Positions 35,263-40,753 of a DNA stretch of 54,662 nucleotides are shown piece after piece (position 1 is the first letter of the stretch; every line of letters begins with the position of its first letter). The translations under genes were made by a program, and so were the position numbers. The notes under the pieces are model-generated. The model saw only the letters and a list, made by a program, of their open reading frames with translations, ran no database searches and was not told where the DNA came from. This stretch comes from Chloroflexota bacterium (GTDB taxonomy: Bacteria; Chloroflexota; Dehalococcoidia; Dehalococcoidales; UBA2162), in NCBI GenBank assembly GCA_016190895.1, contig JACPPR010000048.1, positions 1-54,662 on the forward strand, given 5' to 3'.

Positions 35263-35370
35263 GCCATTACTGAGGTATTAGTATTACGTCTTCTACAACC
35301 GTCCGCCCTCCAGGAAGAAACCAGCTTGGGCATAAATAAAGAGAACAAAAACCGGTGGGGGGGAGGTCAC

Positions 35371-36639
35371 TTGGAAAAGAGAGGGTTTGCAATGATAGTC
35401 TTGGCGGTAGGTACGCTTGTTCTGGCAGGCTGCCGGTCTGCTCCTCCGGCTACATCTTCGACTCCCCCCGAGCCGGCCCCTCAATCGGCGCCCGCGCCGG
35501 CGAGCGAACCAGCTATTCAGCTGACCACAAGTTCGCCGCCGGCGGGCGAACCGTCTTCTCAACCAATCCCTGCTCCAGCACCAGTGTTGACCGAAGACGA
35601 GCCTCTCTTTTCTACGTTTGGCTGGAAAACTGATTTCAGTAAACACAGCGTGTCTTACTCAGAAATTATCTCGGGAGGTGTGGGGAAAGATGGCATTCCT
35701 CCGATTTACCAGCCTAAATTTGAGACTGTGCTTCAGGCAGATTCCTGGCTGACTGGTAAAGACCCGGTGGCGTTTTTTCAGATTGGAGAGCAAACACGCG
35801 CTTATCCTCTCCGGATTCTTATCTGGCATGAGATAGTAAATGACAAGGTCGCTGACATTCCGGTAGTGGTTACCTTTTGTCCACTTTGTAACACGGCAGT
35901 CGTTTTCGATGCCCGCTTGCAGGACAGGGTCCATACTTTTGGGGTTTCAGGTCTGCTGCGTAACAGTGACCTTATTATGTGGGACCACGAAACAGAGTCG
36001 CTGTGGCAGCAAGCCGCCGGTGAAGCTATTGTGGGTGAGCTTACCGGCCAGGCTCTCACCTTTTTGCCCTCTTCTATTGTCTCCTGGCAGGATTTTAAGG
36101 CATCGTTCCCCGAAGGTAAGGTACTTTCGCAGGACACAGGATTTTCCCGGGAATATGGCATAAATCCCTATTTCGGCTATGACACTTCACCATTTCCTTT
36201 TCTTTTCAGAGGCAAGCTTGACCCGCGTCTGCCAGCCCTGGAACGCGTCATCGGGATTACTATTGATGGCAAGTCGGTGGCTTATCCTTTCTCGGTCCTG
36301 GCTGAGCGGCGTGTGATTAACGATGAAGTTGGAGGAAAGAAAATAGCCATCTTTTATTCTCCGGGAACGGTATCGCCTCTAGATGAGCCGGTTATCGAGA
36401 AATCCAGAGAGATTGGCTCAGCAGCCGTCTTTGACACAACTCTTGCAACTAAAACGCTGACCTTCGAATGGAGTGGGAGCCGGATAGTAGATAGAGAGAC
36501 ATCAAGCACGTGGAATATCTTTGGCAAGGCGACTGAAGGTTCCCTGAAGGGCCGGAAACTTGAGCCGATAGTACATGGGACACACTTCTGGTTTGCCTGG
36601 GACGCTTTCAACTCTGATACTACCATTTACCAACCCTAG
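35371..36639 (+). CDS. DUF3179 lipoprotein
   Basis: A 422-aa exported protein with lipobox LVLAGC (C21), a 55-residue Pro/Ser/Ala-rich linker, and a full DUF3179 domain (DGIPPIYQPKFE ... ILIWHEIVNDKVADIPVVVTFCPLCNTAVVFD ... GVSGLLRNSDLIMWDHETESLW). The conserved CPLC pair is C170/C173. DUF3179 proteins are envelope proteins of unknown activity, often near thiol-redox and metal genes. The start is a TTG with GGGGAGG 5 nt upstream; a longer frame to 35326 would put extra hydrophilic residues before the signal peptide. Confidence 0.82.
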   Translation: MEKRGFAMIVLAVGTLVLAGCRSAPPATSSTPPEPAPQSAPAPASEPAIQLTTSSPPAGEPSSQPIPAPAPVLTEDEPLFSTFGWKTDFSKHSVSYSEIISGGVGKDGIPPIYQPKFETVLQADSWLTGKDPVAFFQIGEQTRAYPLRILIWHEIVNDKVADIPVVVTFCPLCNTAVVFDARLQDRVHTFGVSGLLRNSDLIMWDHETESLWQQAAGEAIVGELTGQALTFLPSSIVSWQDFKASFPEGKVLSQDTGFSREYGINPYFGYDTSPFPFLFRGKLDPRLPALERVIGITIDGKSVAYPFSVLAERRVINDEVGGKKIAIFYSPGTVSPLDEPVIEKSREIGSAAVFDTTLATKTLTFEWSGSRIVDRETSSTWNIFGKATEGSLKGRKLEPIVHGTHFWFAWDAFNSDTTIYQP

Positions 36640-37221: not shown

Positions 37222-37575
37222 ATGACGATTTCTACAACCGAAGAGAAGGATACGGAGAGACTGGTCCTGGCGACAAAATTCTTTCGTGCCCTGGGCGACC
37301 TGAGCCGGCTCAAGATTCTTAACAGTCTTCTCGATGGTGAGAAGAACGTGGGGGACCTGGTTGAACTGGTGGGTTCAAGTCAGGGCAGGGTATCCAATCA
37401 TCTGGCCTGTCTGAAACAGTGTGGCTTCGTGGATACCAGGCGGGACGGCAAGTATATCTACTACCGGATTGCCGATGGGCAGGTGCGCCAATTGCTGGAA
37501 ATCTCGCAGCTAATGATAGCCAAGAACGCTGAGCGAATCTGGGCCTGCACGAGAGTAGATGCCAGCAATGATTAG
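37222..37575 (+). CDS. ArsR/SmtB-family metal sensor, CmtR-like
   Basis: A 117-aa winged-helix repressor (FFRALGDLSRLKILNSLLDG ... SSQGRVSNHLACLKQCGFVDTRRDGKYIYYRI). C63 and C67 in the recognition helix (LACLKQC) have the C-x3-C spacing of the Cd(II)/Pb(II) sensor CmtR, and C109 near the C-terminus can supply the third ligand as in CmtR. The CxC of the ArsR/CadC alpha-3 site is absent. It therefore should sense a soft divalent metal (Cd, Pb or Hg) and release the promoter over which it sits. It is the first gene of the operon; the Sec-HMA lipoprotein begins 19 nt after its stop. Confidence 0.87.
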   Translation: MTISTTEEKDTERLVLATKFFRALGDLSRLKILNSLLDGEKNVGDLVELVGSSQGRVSNHLACLKQCGFVDTRRDGKYIYYRIADGQVRQLLEISQLMIAKNAERIWACTRVDASND

Positions 37576-37594
37576 ACAGCACGGGGAAGATAGA

Positions 37595-37954
37595 ATGAAG
37601 TGGCTGAAAATTACACTAGCTACTTTGCTGCTTCTTGTCGTGACGGCCTGCGCCACATCTGCCGGCGGCAGTGCCGGTCCGGCTAGTATAGAGAAAGGAG
37701 GTAGTGTTATGAAACCAATCGCTAACGCCACCCTGAAAGAGGTGATGCTGGAAGTGTCTACCATAAGCTGAACGGGTTGTCAGTCTCGGGTCGAGACTAG
37801 TGCCAGAAGCGTCCCCGGGGTGGTAGACGTGAAGTTTGACAAAGAAAAAATCCAGAGAGTGACTATCTCGTATGACACAACGAGTACCAACCCGGCTGAT
37901 ATCATTAAGACTATCGAAAAGAATGGTGATAAAGTTATCAAGTCAAATCGGTAA
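37595..37954 (+). CDS. Selenocysteine HMA-domain lipoprotein (UxxC), MerP-like
   Basis: 119 aa if TGA 37769-37771 is read as selenocysteine 59. Residues 1-19 are a lipoprotein signal (LLLLVVTAC, lipid C19). From residue about 46 the sequence follows the heavy-metal-associated fold: EVSTIS-U-TG-C-QSRVETSARSVPGVVDVKFDK, VTISYDTTSTNPADIIKTIEKNG. U59-T-G-C62 replaces the usual CxxC metal site. A SECIS-like hairpin follows the TGA. The reading frame stays open for 61 codons after it. A second strong start (AAAGGAGG, then ATG 37709) would give an 81-aa cytoplasmic form without the signal. It lies between the metal-sensing repressor and the CopZ-like selenoprotein, and upstream of merA. Confidence 0.85.
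37782..37798 (+). promoter_or_regulatory. SECIS-like hairpin of the HMA gene
   Basis: AGTCTC and GAGACT form a perfect 6-bp stem with the loop GGGTC. The loop begins 17 nt after the TGA and its first bases are G, as expected for a bacterial SECIS. Confidence 0.72.
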
Positions 37955-37974
37955 TATTTTCTTGGAGGTAAAAA

Positions 37975-38469
37975 ATGACTGATGAAAAAATGGTTGAACT
38001 CGAACATAACTGCTGAGATGACTCTACAAGCAAAGGAGTTTCCTTTTGCAGAGAATGCGGCAACGAAGGGAAAGCTGTCAATGCGGTTACCCTGAAAAGT
38101 CTCGTTAAGAAGCCGAGGCTAAAATCCATCAAGATTCTTGACAGCTTCTATTTTTGCGAGACGCCTGAGTGTGAGGTTGTCTATTTCAACAATGAGCAAG
38201 CTGTCTACCTGGATAAGGCTGATGTCTCGGTCAGAGTCGGCATCAAAGAAACGGATGACCCCATCCCCGTCTGCTATTGCTTCGGATGGACGCAGAAGAA
38301 AATCCTTGACCAACTCAAACAACAGGGTTTTAGCACTGCCGTTCAAGACATCAGCGCCAAGGTGAAGACTGTTGGATGTGCCTGCGATGTTAATAATCCC
38401 TCGGGGAGATGTTGCCTTGCTGGGGTGGGCCAAATCGTGAAAAAGCTGCAAAGCGTGGCACGAAAGTAG
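37975..38469 (+). CDS. Selenocysteine CopZ N-domain-like metallochaperone
   Basis: 164 aa if TGA 38014-38016 is selenocysteine 14. The sequence matches the (2Fe-2S)/zinc domain of Archaeoglobus-type CopZ: HNC13-U14 where a CC pair is usual, then FCRECGNEGKAVNAVTLKSL (C25, C28), FCETPECEVVYF (C61, C66), VCYCFGWT (C100, C102) and GCACDVNNPSGRCC (C135, C137, C146, C147). In Archaeoglobus fulgidus this domain is fused to an HMA domain and delivers copper. Here the HMA domain is the separate gene just upstream. GGAGG lies 6 nt before the ATG. A SECIS-like hairpin follows the TGA. It probably passes a soft metal ion in the cytoplasm. Confidence 0.87.
38032..38046 (+). promoter_or_regulatory. SECIS-like hairpin of the CopZ-like gene
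   Basis: AAAGGA and TCCTTT pair perfectly with the loop GTT, extended by GC / GC across a bulged T (38030-38049). The loop begins 22 nt after the TGA and starts with G. Confidence 0.72.
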
Positions 38470-38545
38470 CGTACGTAAATTACGAGATTAGAACCAAAGT
38501 CGTTCTCTTAGTGTGAACATACGAGCACGATGAAGGGGTGAGCGT

Positions 38546-39319
38546 TTGATACAGATTGGTATCGACCCGGTTATCATTCGGCTTGGTGCGTTATCTTTGA
38601 CCTGGCACAGCCTGTTTTCCCTGATGGGTATTGTGGTTGGGGTATGGCTTCCCGCTCGGCTGGCGGCTAAGGCAGGGCTGTCCCCGGATACTGTCTATTC
38701 AATGGCTATATGGGCTGTTCCCGGGGGAATTGTCGGCGCTCGTCTAGTCCACGTCATCGACTACTGGAGCTATTACGCGGCCAATCCCGGAGCTATCCTG
38801 GCCATATGGACAGGCGGTATCGCTATCTGGGGAGCTATATTTGGAGGCAGCGTTGGGGCACTCGTTTATGCGCGGGTAAATGGCATTCGATTGGCTCCCT
38901 ATGCCGACCTGATTGCCCCCGCCCTAATTCTTGGCCAGGCGATAGGCCGGATTGGCGATATTATCAATGGCGAGCATTTTAGCAAACTTACGGACTTACC
39001 CTGGGGCGTTGTCTATACCCATCCCGATAGCCCTGCCTACGGTCTGCCGGCGTCCCACCCGGAGGTAGCCTACGAGCTTATTATGAACCTGCTAATCTTT
39101 GCGATGTTGTGGGCATTGCGCAAGCGGATTCGCAGAGAAGGCAATCTCTTTCTTATCTATCTTGTTTCATATTCTGCAGGCCGTTTCTTACTTTCTTTCC
39201 TGCGGTTGGATAGCAACACGGTCTTCCTGTCGCTCAATCAAGCCCAGTGGATTTCTTTGCTCGTCCTGGTGGTATCGTTGCTGCCTCTGCTCCTTCTCAG
39301 GCGTGTTCACTTAGTTTAG
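38546..39319 (+). CDS. lgt: Prolipoprotein diacylglyceryl transferase
   Basis: A 257-aa polytopic membrane enzyme that adds the diacylglyceryl group to the lipobox cysteine of prolipoproteins. Seven hydrophobic segments; the Lgt signature appears as GGIAIWGAIFGG and LGQAIGRIGDIINGEHFSKLTDLPWGV, including the conserved Arg and Glu. The TTG start has AAGGGGTGAGCG upstream. It is embedded between the Sec-CopZ gene and merA, so the lipoprotein-making enzyme sits in an operon whose first structural gene codes a lipoprotein. Whether it is the only lgt of the genome cannot be seen. Confidence 0.92.
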   Translation: MIQIGIDPVIIRLGALSLTWHSLFSLMGIVVGVWLPARLAAKAGLSPDTVYSMAIWAVPGGIVGARLVHVIDYWSYYAANPGAILAIWTGGIAIWGAIFGGSVGALVYARVNGIRLAPYADLIAPALILGQAIGRIGDIINGEHFSKLTDLPWGVVYTHPDSPAYGLPASHPEVAYELIMNLLIFAMLWALRKRIRREGNLFLIYLVSYSAGRFLLSFLRLDSNTVFLSLNQAQWISLLVLVVSLLPLLLLRRVHLV

Positions 39320-39352
39320 TATTAAAGTTTAGTATTAAAAAGGAGGCAGACC

Positions 39353-40753
39353 ATGAACAAATATGACCTTATCATTATCGGCGGTGGCTCGGCGGCATTT
39401 GCGGCGGCCACGAAAGCCTCAGACATGGGGAGAACGGCGCTGATGATTAACGGCGGGCTGCCCATCGGCGGCACCTGTATGAATGTCGGCTGCATGCCGA
39501 GCAAACACCTGCTGACAGTGGGTGATGAATTCTTTTACTCTCAAAGGCCGAGGTTCAAGGCTTTGCGCACCCAATCTGAAGTGTCTTTTGGAACTGCCAT
39601 GCAGGAAGTGAACGATATGATAGCCCGCGTGCGTCAGCAGAACTACGTGGACGTGCTGAAAGGGCTGGAAGATGTTACCCTGGTAGAAGGGATGGCCCGG
39701 TTTACCGGCCGAAACAATGTTGAAGTGGCCGGCGAGACCTATGAGGCTGATAAGATTCTTGTCGCCACAGGGTCTTCTACCAGAGTCCTGCCGATACCAG
39801 GATTGAACAAGGTGCGCTGGTTGAACAATGTAACCGCTTTGACGCTCCGGGAACTGCCGAAGTCTATGATTGTTATCGGCGGAGGCCCTTTAGGGCTGGA
39901 GTTTGCCCAGATGTTCGCTCACTTCGGTAGTAAAGTTACTTTACTGGAAGCTGCCGACCACATTCTTCCCAGACAAGAACCCGATATCGCTGCCGAGTTA
40001 CGGCGGTGTCTGGAGGAGGAAGGCATTATTATCCTCACCGGGGTCGTCATCGAAAAGATTACCGAGCGAGATTACAGAAAAATGGTGACCCTCAGGATGG
40101 GAGACGGCCTTGAAGAGATAGCCGCGGACGAGCTTCTACTGGCTGCCGGCATCCAGCCGAATACGGCTGACCTCAACCTGGACGTGGCCGGGATAAAGAT
40201 GAACAAAAACGGATTTATTCTGGTTAACCAGTATTATCAGACGGACAACCCCGGTGTCTTTGCCGCAGGTGATTGCATCGGCAAGATGGCCCTGGAACCG
40301 GTAGCGGCGAAAGAGGGCGCGCTGGCCACCGAAAATGCTTTCACAGCGCCGGTTCGAACCATTAACTATGACCATATACCGTCCGCTGTCTTCACTAACC
40401 CGCAGGTGGCTTCCGTGGGCTTAACTGAAGAAGAAGAAATGCGCCGCTTCAATACCTGCTTGTGCCGAACGATAGGTATGAACATGGTGCCACGGGCCTC
40501 GGCTGTGAACGAAACCAGAGGCGTTTTTAAGATGGCCGTTCATCCCCGGAACCAGAAGATACTGGGTGTGCATATCGTGGCCCCGGATGCGGCGGATTTA
40601 ATTCACGAGGCGACTCTCGCGGTAAAGCACGGCCTGACTATCGACGATATCATCGACACGGTCCACGTGTTTCCTACATTCAGCGAGGGCATCAAGCGCG
40701 TTGCTCAGTCCTTCACCAGGGATATCAGTAAGATGAGCTGCTGTGTGGAATGA
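39353..40753 (+). CDS. merA: Mercuric reductase-like flavoprotein
   Basis: A 466-aa pyridine nucleotide-disulfide oxidoreductase. FAD loop [12 protein letters not shown] (GGGSAA 10-15), redox pair C42/C47 ([13 protein letters not shown]), NAD(P)H loop [11 protein letters not shown], and FAD site [10 protein letters not shown]. The C-terminus ends SCCVE, with C463-C464 at the vicinal cysteine position that hands Hg(II) to the active site in MerA; lipoamide and glutathione reductases lack it. The N-terminal HMA domain of many MerA proteins is absent, though a separate HMA gene lies upstream. NAD(P)H reduction of Hg(II) to Hg(0) in the cytoplasm is expected. AAGGAGG precedes the ATG. Confidence 0.9.

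Follow-up and report, generated by a model that had tools for sequence, protein, structure and literature searches.

On the forward strand of the window (i.e. the whole stretch of 54,662 nucleotides of DNA that was analysed), a putative operon at 37222-40753 comprises five genes in the order ArsR - MerP-like lipoprotein - CopZ-like protein - Lgt - MerA. The first gene (37222..37575) encodes an ArsR/SmtB-type metalloregulator (PF01022, 4.6e-15; NF033788, 90.1 bits against a cut-off of 55) that shares 70% identity with the ArsR of a related mer island in genome G056. The last gene (39353..40753) encodes a mercuric reductase MerA (TIGR02053, 535.9 bits against a cut-off of 454.45) that carries a C-terminal vicinal SCC motif and has the mercuric reductase 5x1y as its best solved match (2e-104). 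Between these lie the genes for the MerP-like lipoprotein (37595..37954), for a CopZ-N-terminal-type metallochaperone of 164 aa (37975..38469) and for a copy of prolipoprotein diacylglyceryl transferase, Lgt (38546..39319; TIGR00544, 160.5 bits against a cut-off of 118.9). Neither the MerP-like gene, with its own in-frame TGA, nor the mer operon was part of the initial annotation of this DNA, which dealt with the CopZ-like frame.

With respect to the features by which mer operons are recognised, a mercuric reductase is present, the regulator is of the ArsR and not of the MerR type, and the scan of the five operon proteins revealed no MerT. A MerR-type regulator and MerT typify the classical proteobacterial mer operon and do not occur in every mer operon. 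In related islands MerA and MerP also occur together, in some cases with an ArsR gene (L141 and L145) or an Lgt gene (L141, 2605-3375; L142, 9576-10403; L145, 4090-4878), and MerT-like proteins scoring below the Pfam cut-off are encoded in L143 and L145. An lgt gene is a repeated companion of lipoprotein-type MerP genes in mer islands. As the genome has a second lgt elsewhere (contig C77), the one in the operon may be a dedicated enzyme for lipidation of the MerP lipoprotein.

The CopZ-like frame and its Cys-Sec pair

The CopZ-like frame starts at ATG 37975, which is preceded by a strong Shine-Dalgarno sequence (TTGGAGGT), and its product reads MTDEKMVELEHNCU-DDSTSKGVSFCRECG... up to the next stop, which ends at 38469. 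The initial annotation had placed a Cys codon directly before the single in-frame TGA (38014..38016, residue 14), and both the sequence and the coordinates proved correct. Past the TGA, the first in-frame ATG, GTG or TTG is found at residue 130, so that no downstream start can make the conserved domain; given the start site as well, that domain is hardly makeable without readthrough of the TGA. The protein combines a zf_CopZ domain (PF18423, E 3.2e-18) with a BFD-like [2Fe-2S] domain, and its homology to other proteins extends past the TGA, to residue 150 and beyond.

In an alignment of 46 sequences, in which the alignment program writes Sec as Cys, the columns of residues 13 and 14 are invariant. 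The in-frame UGA thereby falls on a conserved Cys column, as is required of a bacterial selenoprotein gene, and the earlier expectation that relatives have a CC pair at this place was borne out by every homologue that is readable there. Among the 80 best loci on GTDB contigs, all relatives with a readable N-terminus are of the CC type and none has a TGA at this codon; the only two relatives on viral contigs are CC proteins as well. The closest relatives are from Methanoperedens-type archaea (60-64% identity, all CC), and in the tree the CopZ-like protein groups with these and with L034 among the CC proteins, with a branch support of 90/90, which is not strong.

The model NF047645 (CopZ_Nterm_CC, putative iron-sulfur cluster-binding metallochaperone) recognises the protein with 128.7 bits against a cut-off of 100. 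It shares with this family the N-terminal pair and the cysteines of the CxxC, C....C, CYC and CAC...CC motifs, and it differs in having Sec at position 14, where the members that were fetched and are readable there have Cys. The model NF045877 (CopZ_Nterm_CU, the Csac_0668 family of 2Fe-2S cluster-binding (seleno)proteins) describes the same architecture, including a Cys-Sec pair, and aligns with residues 9-157 over positions 6-158 of 161. The score of 76.4 nevertheless stays below the cut-off of 190, so that the CopZ-like protein is to be regarded, on profile scores and not on a tree, as a Sec form of a CC-type family different from the Csac_0668 family; the mer operon context is a further difference.

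No other Sec form of the CC family was found among the 80 best GTDB-contig loci, in 393 genomes of the class or in 400 of the phylum. More generally, the loci retrieved and the genomes searched yielded no TGA-containing homologue, though a CU sister family is already catalogued. The CopZ-type CU pair is thus seen in a single genome, a draft MAG of 79% completeness. Partial TGA matches in L027, L028, L029 and L030 were rejected as Sec forms of the CC family, as they belong to a separate, stand-alone BFD 'RUC' kind. The small BFD-like proteins of these four loci, all from the same class, have their in-frame TGA within an R-U-C or T-U-C motif and resemble the published CopZ-family form 1 (GxUC).

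The machinery for Sec insertion is encoded in the same genome: profile searches recovered a tRNA-Sec (75.3 bits), SelA (560 bits), SelB (about 345-347 bits) and SelD (383 bits). The tRNA-Sec matches that end contigs C76 and C84 score equally and probably represent one gene at an assembly break. On homology, alignment and machinery taken together, the CopZ-like frame is judged to be a real selenoprotein gene. The SelD gene (L113, 7723-8919, minus strand) itself appears to encode a selenoprotein, with an in-frame TGA in the motif CAG-U-AS and a hairpin after the UGA that agrees with the bSECIS rules.

The MerP-like gene and the hairpins behind the two UGAs

The MerP-like protein has a lipobox (LLVVTAC) and an HMA domain (PF00403, 4.6e-12), in which the single in-frame TGA (37769..37771, STIS-U-TGC) takes the place of the first Cys of the metal-binding CxxC and so produces a UxxC motif. 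Its scores remain under the cut-offs of TIGR02052 MerP (30.4 against 92.55) and of NF041115 (26 against 95). Candidate starts lie at 37595, at 37559 and at an internal ATG at 37709; this last is preceded by a strong Shine-Dalgarno sequence (AAAGGAGGTAGTGTT), and a shorter, cytoplasmic form of the protein is therefore possible.

A TGA is present at the same codon in G056 (57% identity) and G035 (48%), and a TGC or TGT in G070 and G029; these homologues, of both the Sec and the Cys form, share 48-58% identity with the MerP-like protein and all stem from the same class. The MerP-like gene hence has TGA-containing homologues in other organisms, a supporting, though not strictly defining, mark of a selenoprotein gene. 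More remote HMA proteins with UxxC are found in G018, G509, G523 and L094, and searches for further Sec-MerP genes around G056 and G035 yielded no new genomes. At L138, on contig C19 of G056, another protein with an HMA domain has a TGA in frame (EGMLGFUCAG); it is possibly a selenoprotein, or the TGA a chance stop.

Behind the MerP-like UGA, a putative bSECIS element (AGTCTCG-GGT-CGAGACT, 37782..37798, MFE -11.9) has its loop starting 17 nt past the UGA. All seven pairs are kept in both G056 and G035, with compensatory changes from A-U to G-C and from U-A to C-G, and in the Cys homologues five of the seven pairs remain in G070 and two in G029. In the remote Sec homologues G018, G509 and G523 the hairpin is absent in that register and the bSECIS test is failed; L094 passes the general bSECIS test, but not in the register of the MerP-like hairpin. 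Even so, this covariation constitutes the best evidence of UGA decoding in this type of operon.

The CopZ-like UGA is followed by a putative bSECIS element GCAAAGGA-GTT-TCCTTTTGC (38030..38049, with a bulged T; MFE -9.7), flanked by further CTCT/AGAG pairing (38022-38025 with 38050-38053). The spacing to the loop is 21 nt and the G that opens the loop is the 22nd base past the UGA, precisely as described before. The published criteria (a loop of 3-9 nt, a stem of 4-16 bp, a G in the first two loop bases, a spacing of 16-37 nt and an MFE of -7.5 or lower; PMC13188914) recognise a bSECIS behind both UGAs, but likewise behind 256 (14.5%) of the TGA triplets of the window, which number 1766 over its two strands. 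Because of this background and of a fold z-score of only -1.2, the CopZ-like hairpin by itself is weak evidence; our own 8-bp hairpin rule has a background of 4%, and with either background the hairpin was rejected as sole proof of Sec decoding. The hairpin is not seen in the nearest Cys homologues, and those from Methanoperedens fold less well at this site (-5.4 to -6.1).

Considering the two genes jointly, we regard it as probable that the operon is a mer operon making two Sec-decoded proteins. The view that both TGAs are loss-of-function mutations in a decaying operon draws on the facts that a single MAG is involved, that no second genome shows the CopZ TGA and that the MerA match at L033, a Methanoperedens-type locus, is split in two and lacks a large part. 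Against it, the two TGAs belong to neighbouring genes and each coincides precisely with a metal-binding or invariant Cys, in frames that are otherwise open and amid intact operon genes; the Sec machinery is present, and the MerP TGA is conserved in other genomes with covarying hairpins, so that we consider decay very improbable. Less probable still is that CopZ-like translation starts past the TGA, which has just 13 codons ahead of it, or that the TGA specifies another amino acid: a start downstream, named at the outset as grounds for dropping the Cys-Sec reading, would have neither an in-frame ATG, GTG or TTG before codon 130 nor the strong Shine-Dalgarno sequence at 37975, and reassignment of TGA was rejected because merA, next door, ends in TGA as an ordinary stop.

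Position and possible role of the Cys-Sec pair

The AlphaFold model of the CopZ-like protein has an overall pLDDT of 91, with 91-98 in the core and about 54 for residues 1-20. Foldseek matched the model to 2HU9, the N-terminal domain of Archaeoglobus fulgidus CopZ, with E 9e-11 and a TM score of 0.85 (by target), which upholds the notion that a protein with the CopZ N-terminal fold has here exchanged the second Cys of its CC pair for Sec. In sequence, the match to 2HU9 covers residues 25-147 (E 3e-23), the part over which the folds are alike, and begins with residue 25 on residue 4 of the chain. The solved domain has no residues that correspond to the arm with the pair, and, as opposed to A. 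fulgidus CopZ, the CopZ-like protein lacks a C-terminal HMA domain. Cys13 and Sec14 thus lie ahead of the entire solved domain and, according to the model, on a flexible N-terminal arm outside the Zn/[2Fe-2S] part, and for that reason the pair is probably not a cluster ligand. The original suggestion of a ligand pair for the cluster or zinc site is thus not borne out; neither the 2HU9 alignment nor the AlphaFold model supports the pair as a Zn or Fe-S ligand.

The genomic context of the CC-type relatives offers indications of function. In seven loci (L031, L033, L071, L079, L083, L084 and L085) such a relative adjoins a true MerA with a C-terminal SCC (SRC in L085), and L031 and L033 are near relatives of the CopZ-like protein. 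Others adjoin merR on a Peribacillus plasmid and merB on a Deinococcus plasmid.

Selenium binds mercury far tighter than sulfur does, and the antagonism between the two elements is known mostly as toxicity. In the working that we propose, SelB and tRNA-Sec would decode UGA 38014-38016 as Sec, resulting in a CopZ-like product with the Cys13-Sec14 arm in front of a Zn/[2Fe-2S]-type folded core, and would likewise decode UGA 37769-37771, resulting in a membrane-anchored, extracytoplasmic MerP-like lipoprotein with Sec-x-x-Cys. Outside the cell, the MerP-like protein would capture Hg(II) through its UxxC motif; once Hg(II) has reached the cytoplasm, the CU arm of the CopZ-like protein would take it by thiol/selenolate exchange and pass it to the C-terminal CC of MerA for reduction to Hg(0). 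The selenolates would raise both the affinity for mercury and the rate of exchange, and the core would perhaps serve as a redox or structural platform and not as the mercury site. From the operon context and the general chemistry of mercury and thiols, capture of Hg(II) and its hand-over to MerA appears the likeliest role of the CU pair. The complete relay, from selenolate to selenolate, i.e. from a Sec-MerP lipoprotein via a Cys-Sec CopZ-like carrier to MerA within one operon that has its own Lgt, is put forward tentatively, at somewhat less than even chances. If it holds, this would be a case of mercury resistance that relies on selenocysteine for metal binding and not for catalysis.

The foremost alternative is a real selenoprotein with another task, in which the metal is Cu, Ag, Cd or another soft metal, or in which a redox-active CU pair (selenenylsulfide) reduces or repairs the Fe-S core. 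In its favour, the solved relative 2HU9 is a domain from a copper chaperone, and the ArsR regulator can be called metal-sensing in a generic way only. CC-type relatives have also been found next to a multicopper oxidase gene and, in one case, next to a heavy-metal P-type ATPase, which means that the metal need not be Hg. Opposed to this are MerA directly downstream in the same operon, the MerP-like neighbour and the location of the near relatives L031 and L033 by MerA; the stretch examined has no gene for a copper ATPase. We accordingly judge this alternative unlikely, though clearly less so than decay or a downstream start.

Relation to known selenoprotein systems

The initial annotation had called a Cys-Sec pair in such a chaperone unusual, which has to be tempered for the motif itself, since PMC13188914 already has an entry for it among the CopZ-family Sec proteins, 'form 2 (Csac_0668), motif CU'. 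A Sec-containing MerP was likewise listed in 2008, in the Global Ocean Sampling selenoproteome (PMC2398784); it is of the MerP/HMA type, as is the MerP-like protein of the window, and the UxxU metal-binding (seleno)proteins of NF041115 are also HMA-like. The MerP-like protein differs from both in being a lipoprotein with UxxC whose operon also encodes MerA, Lgt and a further selenoprotein. The Sec-assisted organometallic (SAO) system, named in PMC13188914, resembles the present operon in its several selenoproteins per operon and in the proposed role of Sec towards a metal; the Sao models, however, match none of the five operon proteins, and the enzyme here is MerA. In the literature searched, of which the coverage is partial, we found neither a description of two selenoproteins in a MerA operon nor a joint mention of Lgt and a mer operon. 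The CU motif, then, is not new, and what looks new is its pairing with a Sec-containing mercury-binding partner beside a mercuric reductase.

With two apparent Sec proteins for mercury handling beside a mercuric reductase, a role of Sec as metal ligand, and not as redox catalyst, becomes directly testable, and mercury resistance in such an organism would depend on the supply of selenium. Under standard annotation, both frames of this operon would be closed at their UGA codons, so that the CopZ-like protein would go missing and the MerP-like one would be truncated.

Published Sec forms exist for DUF3179 proteins. Upstream of the operon (35326-36639) lies a DUF3179 gene of the Cys form, of which a 60% identical copy is located beside the mer island of G070 (L142).
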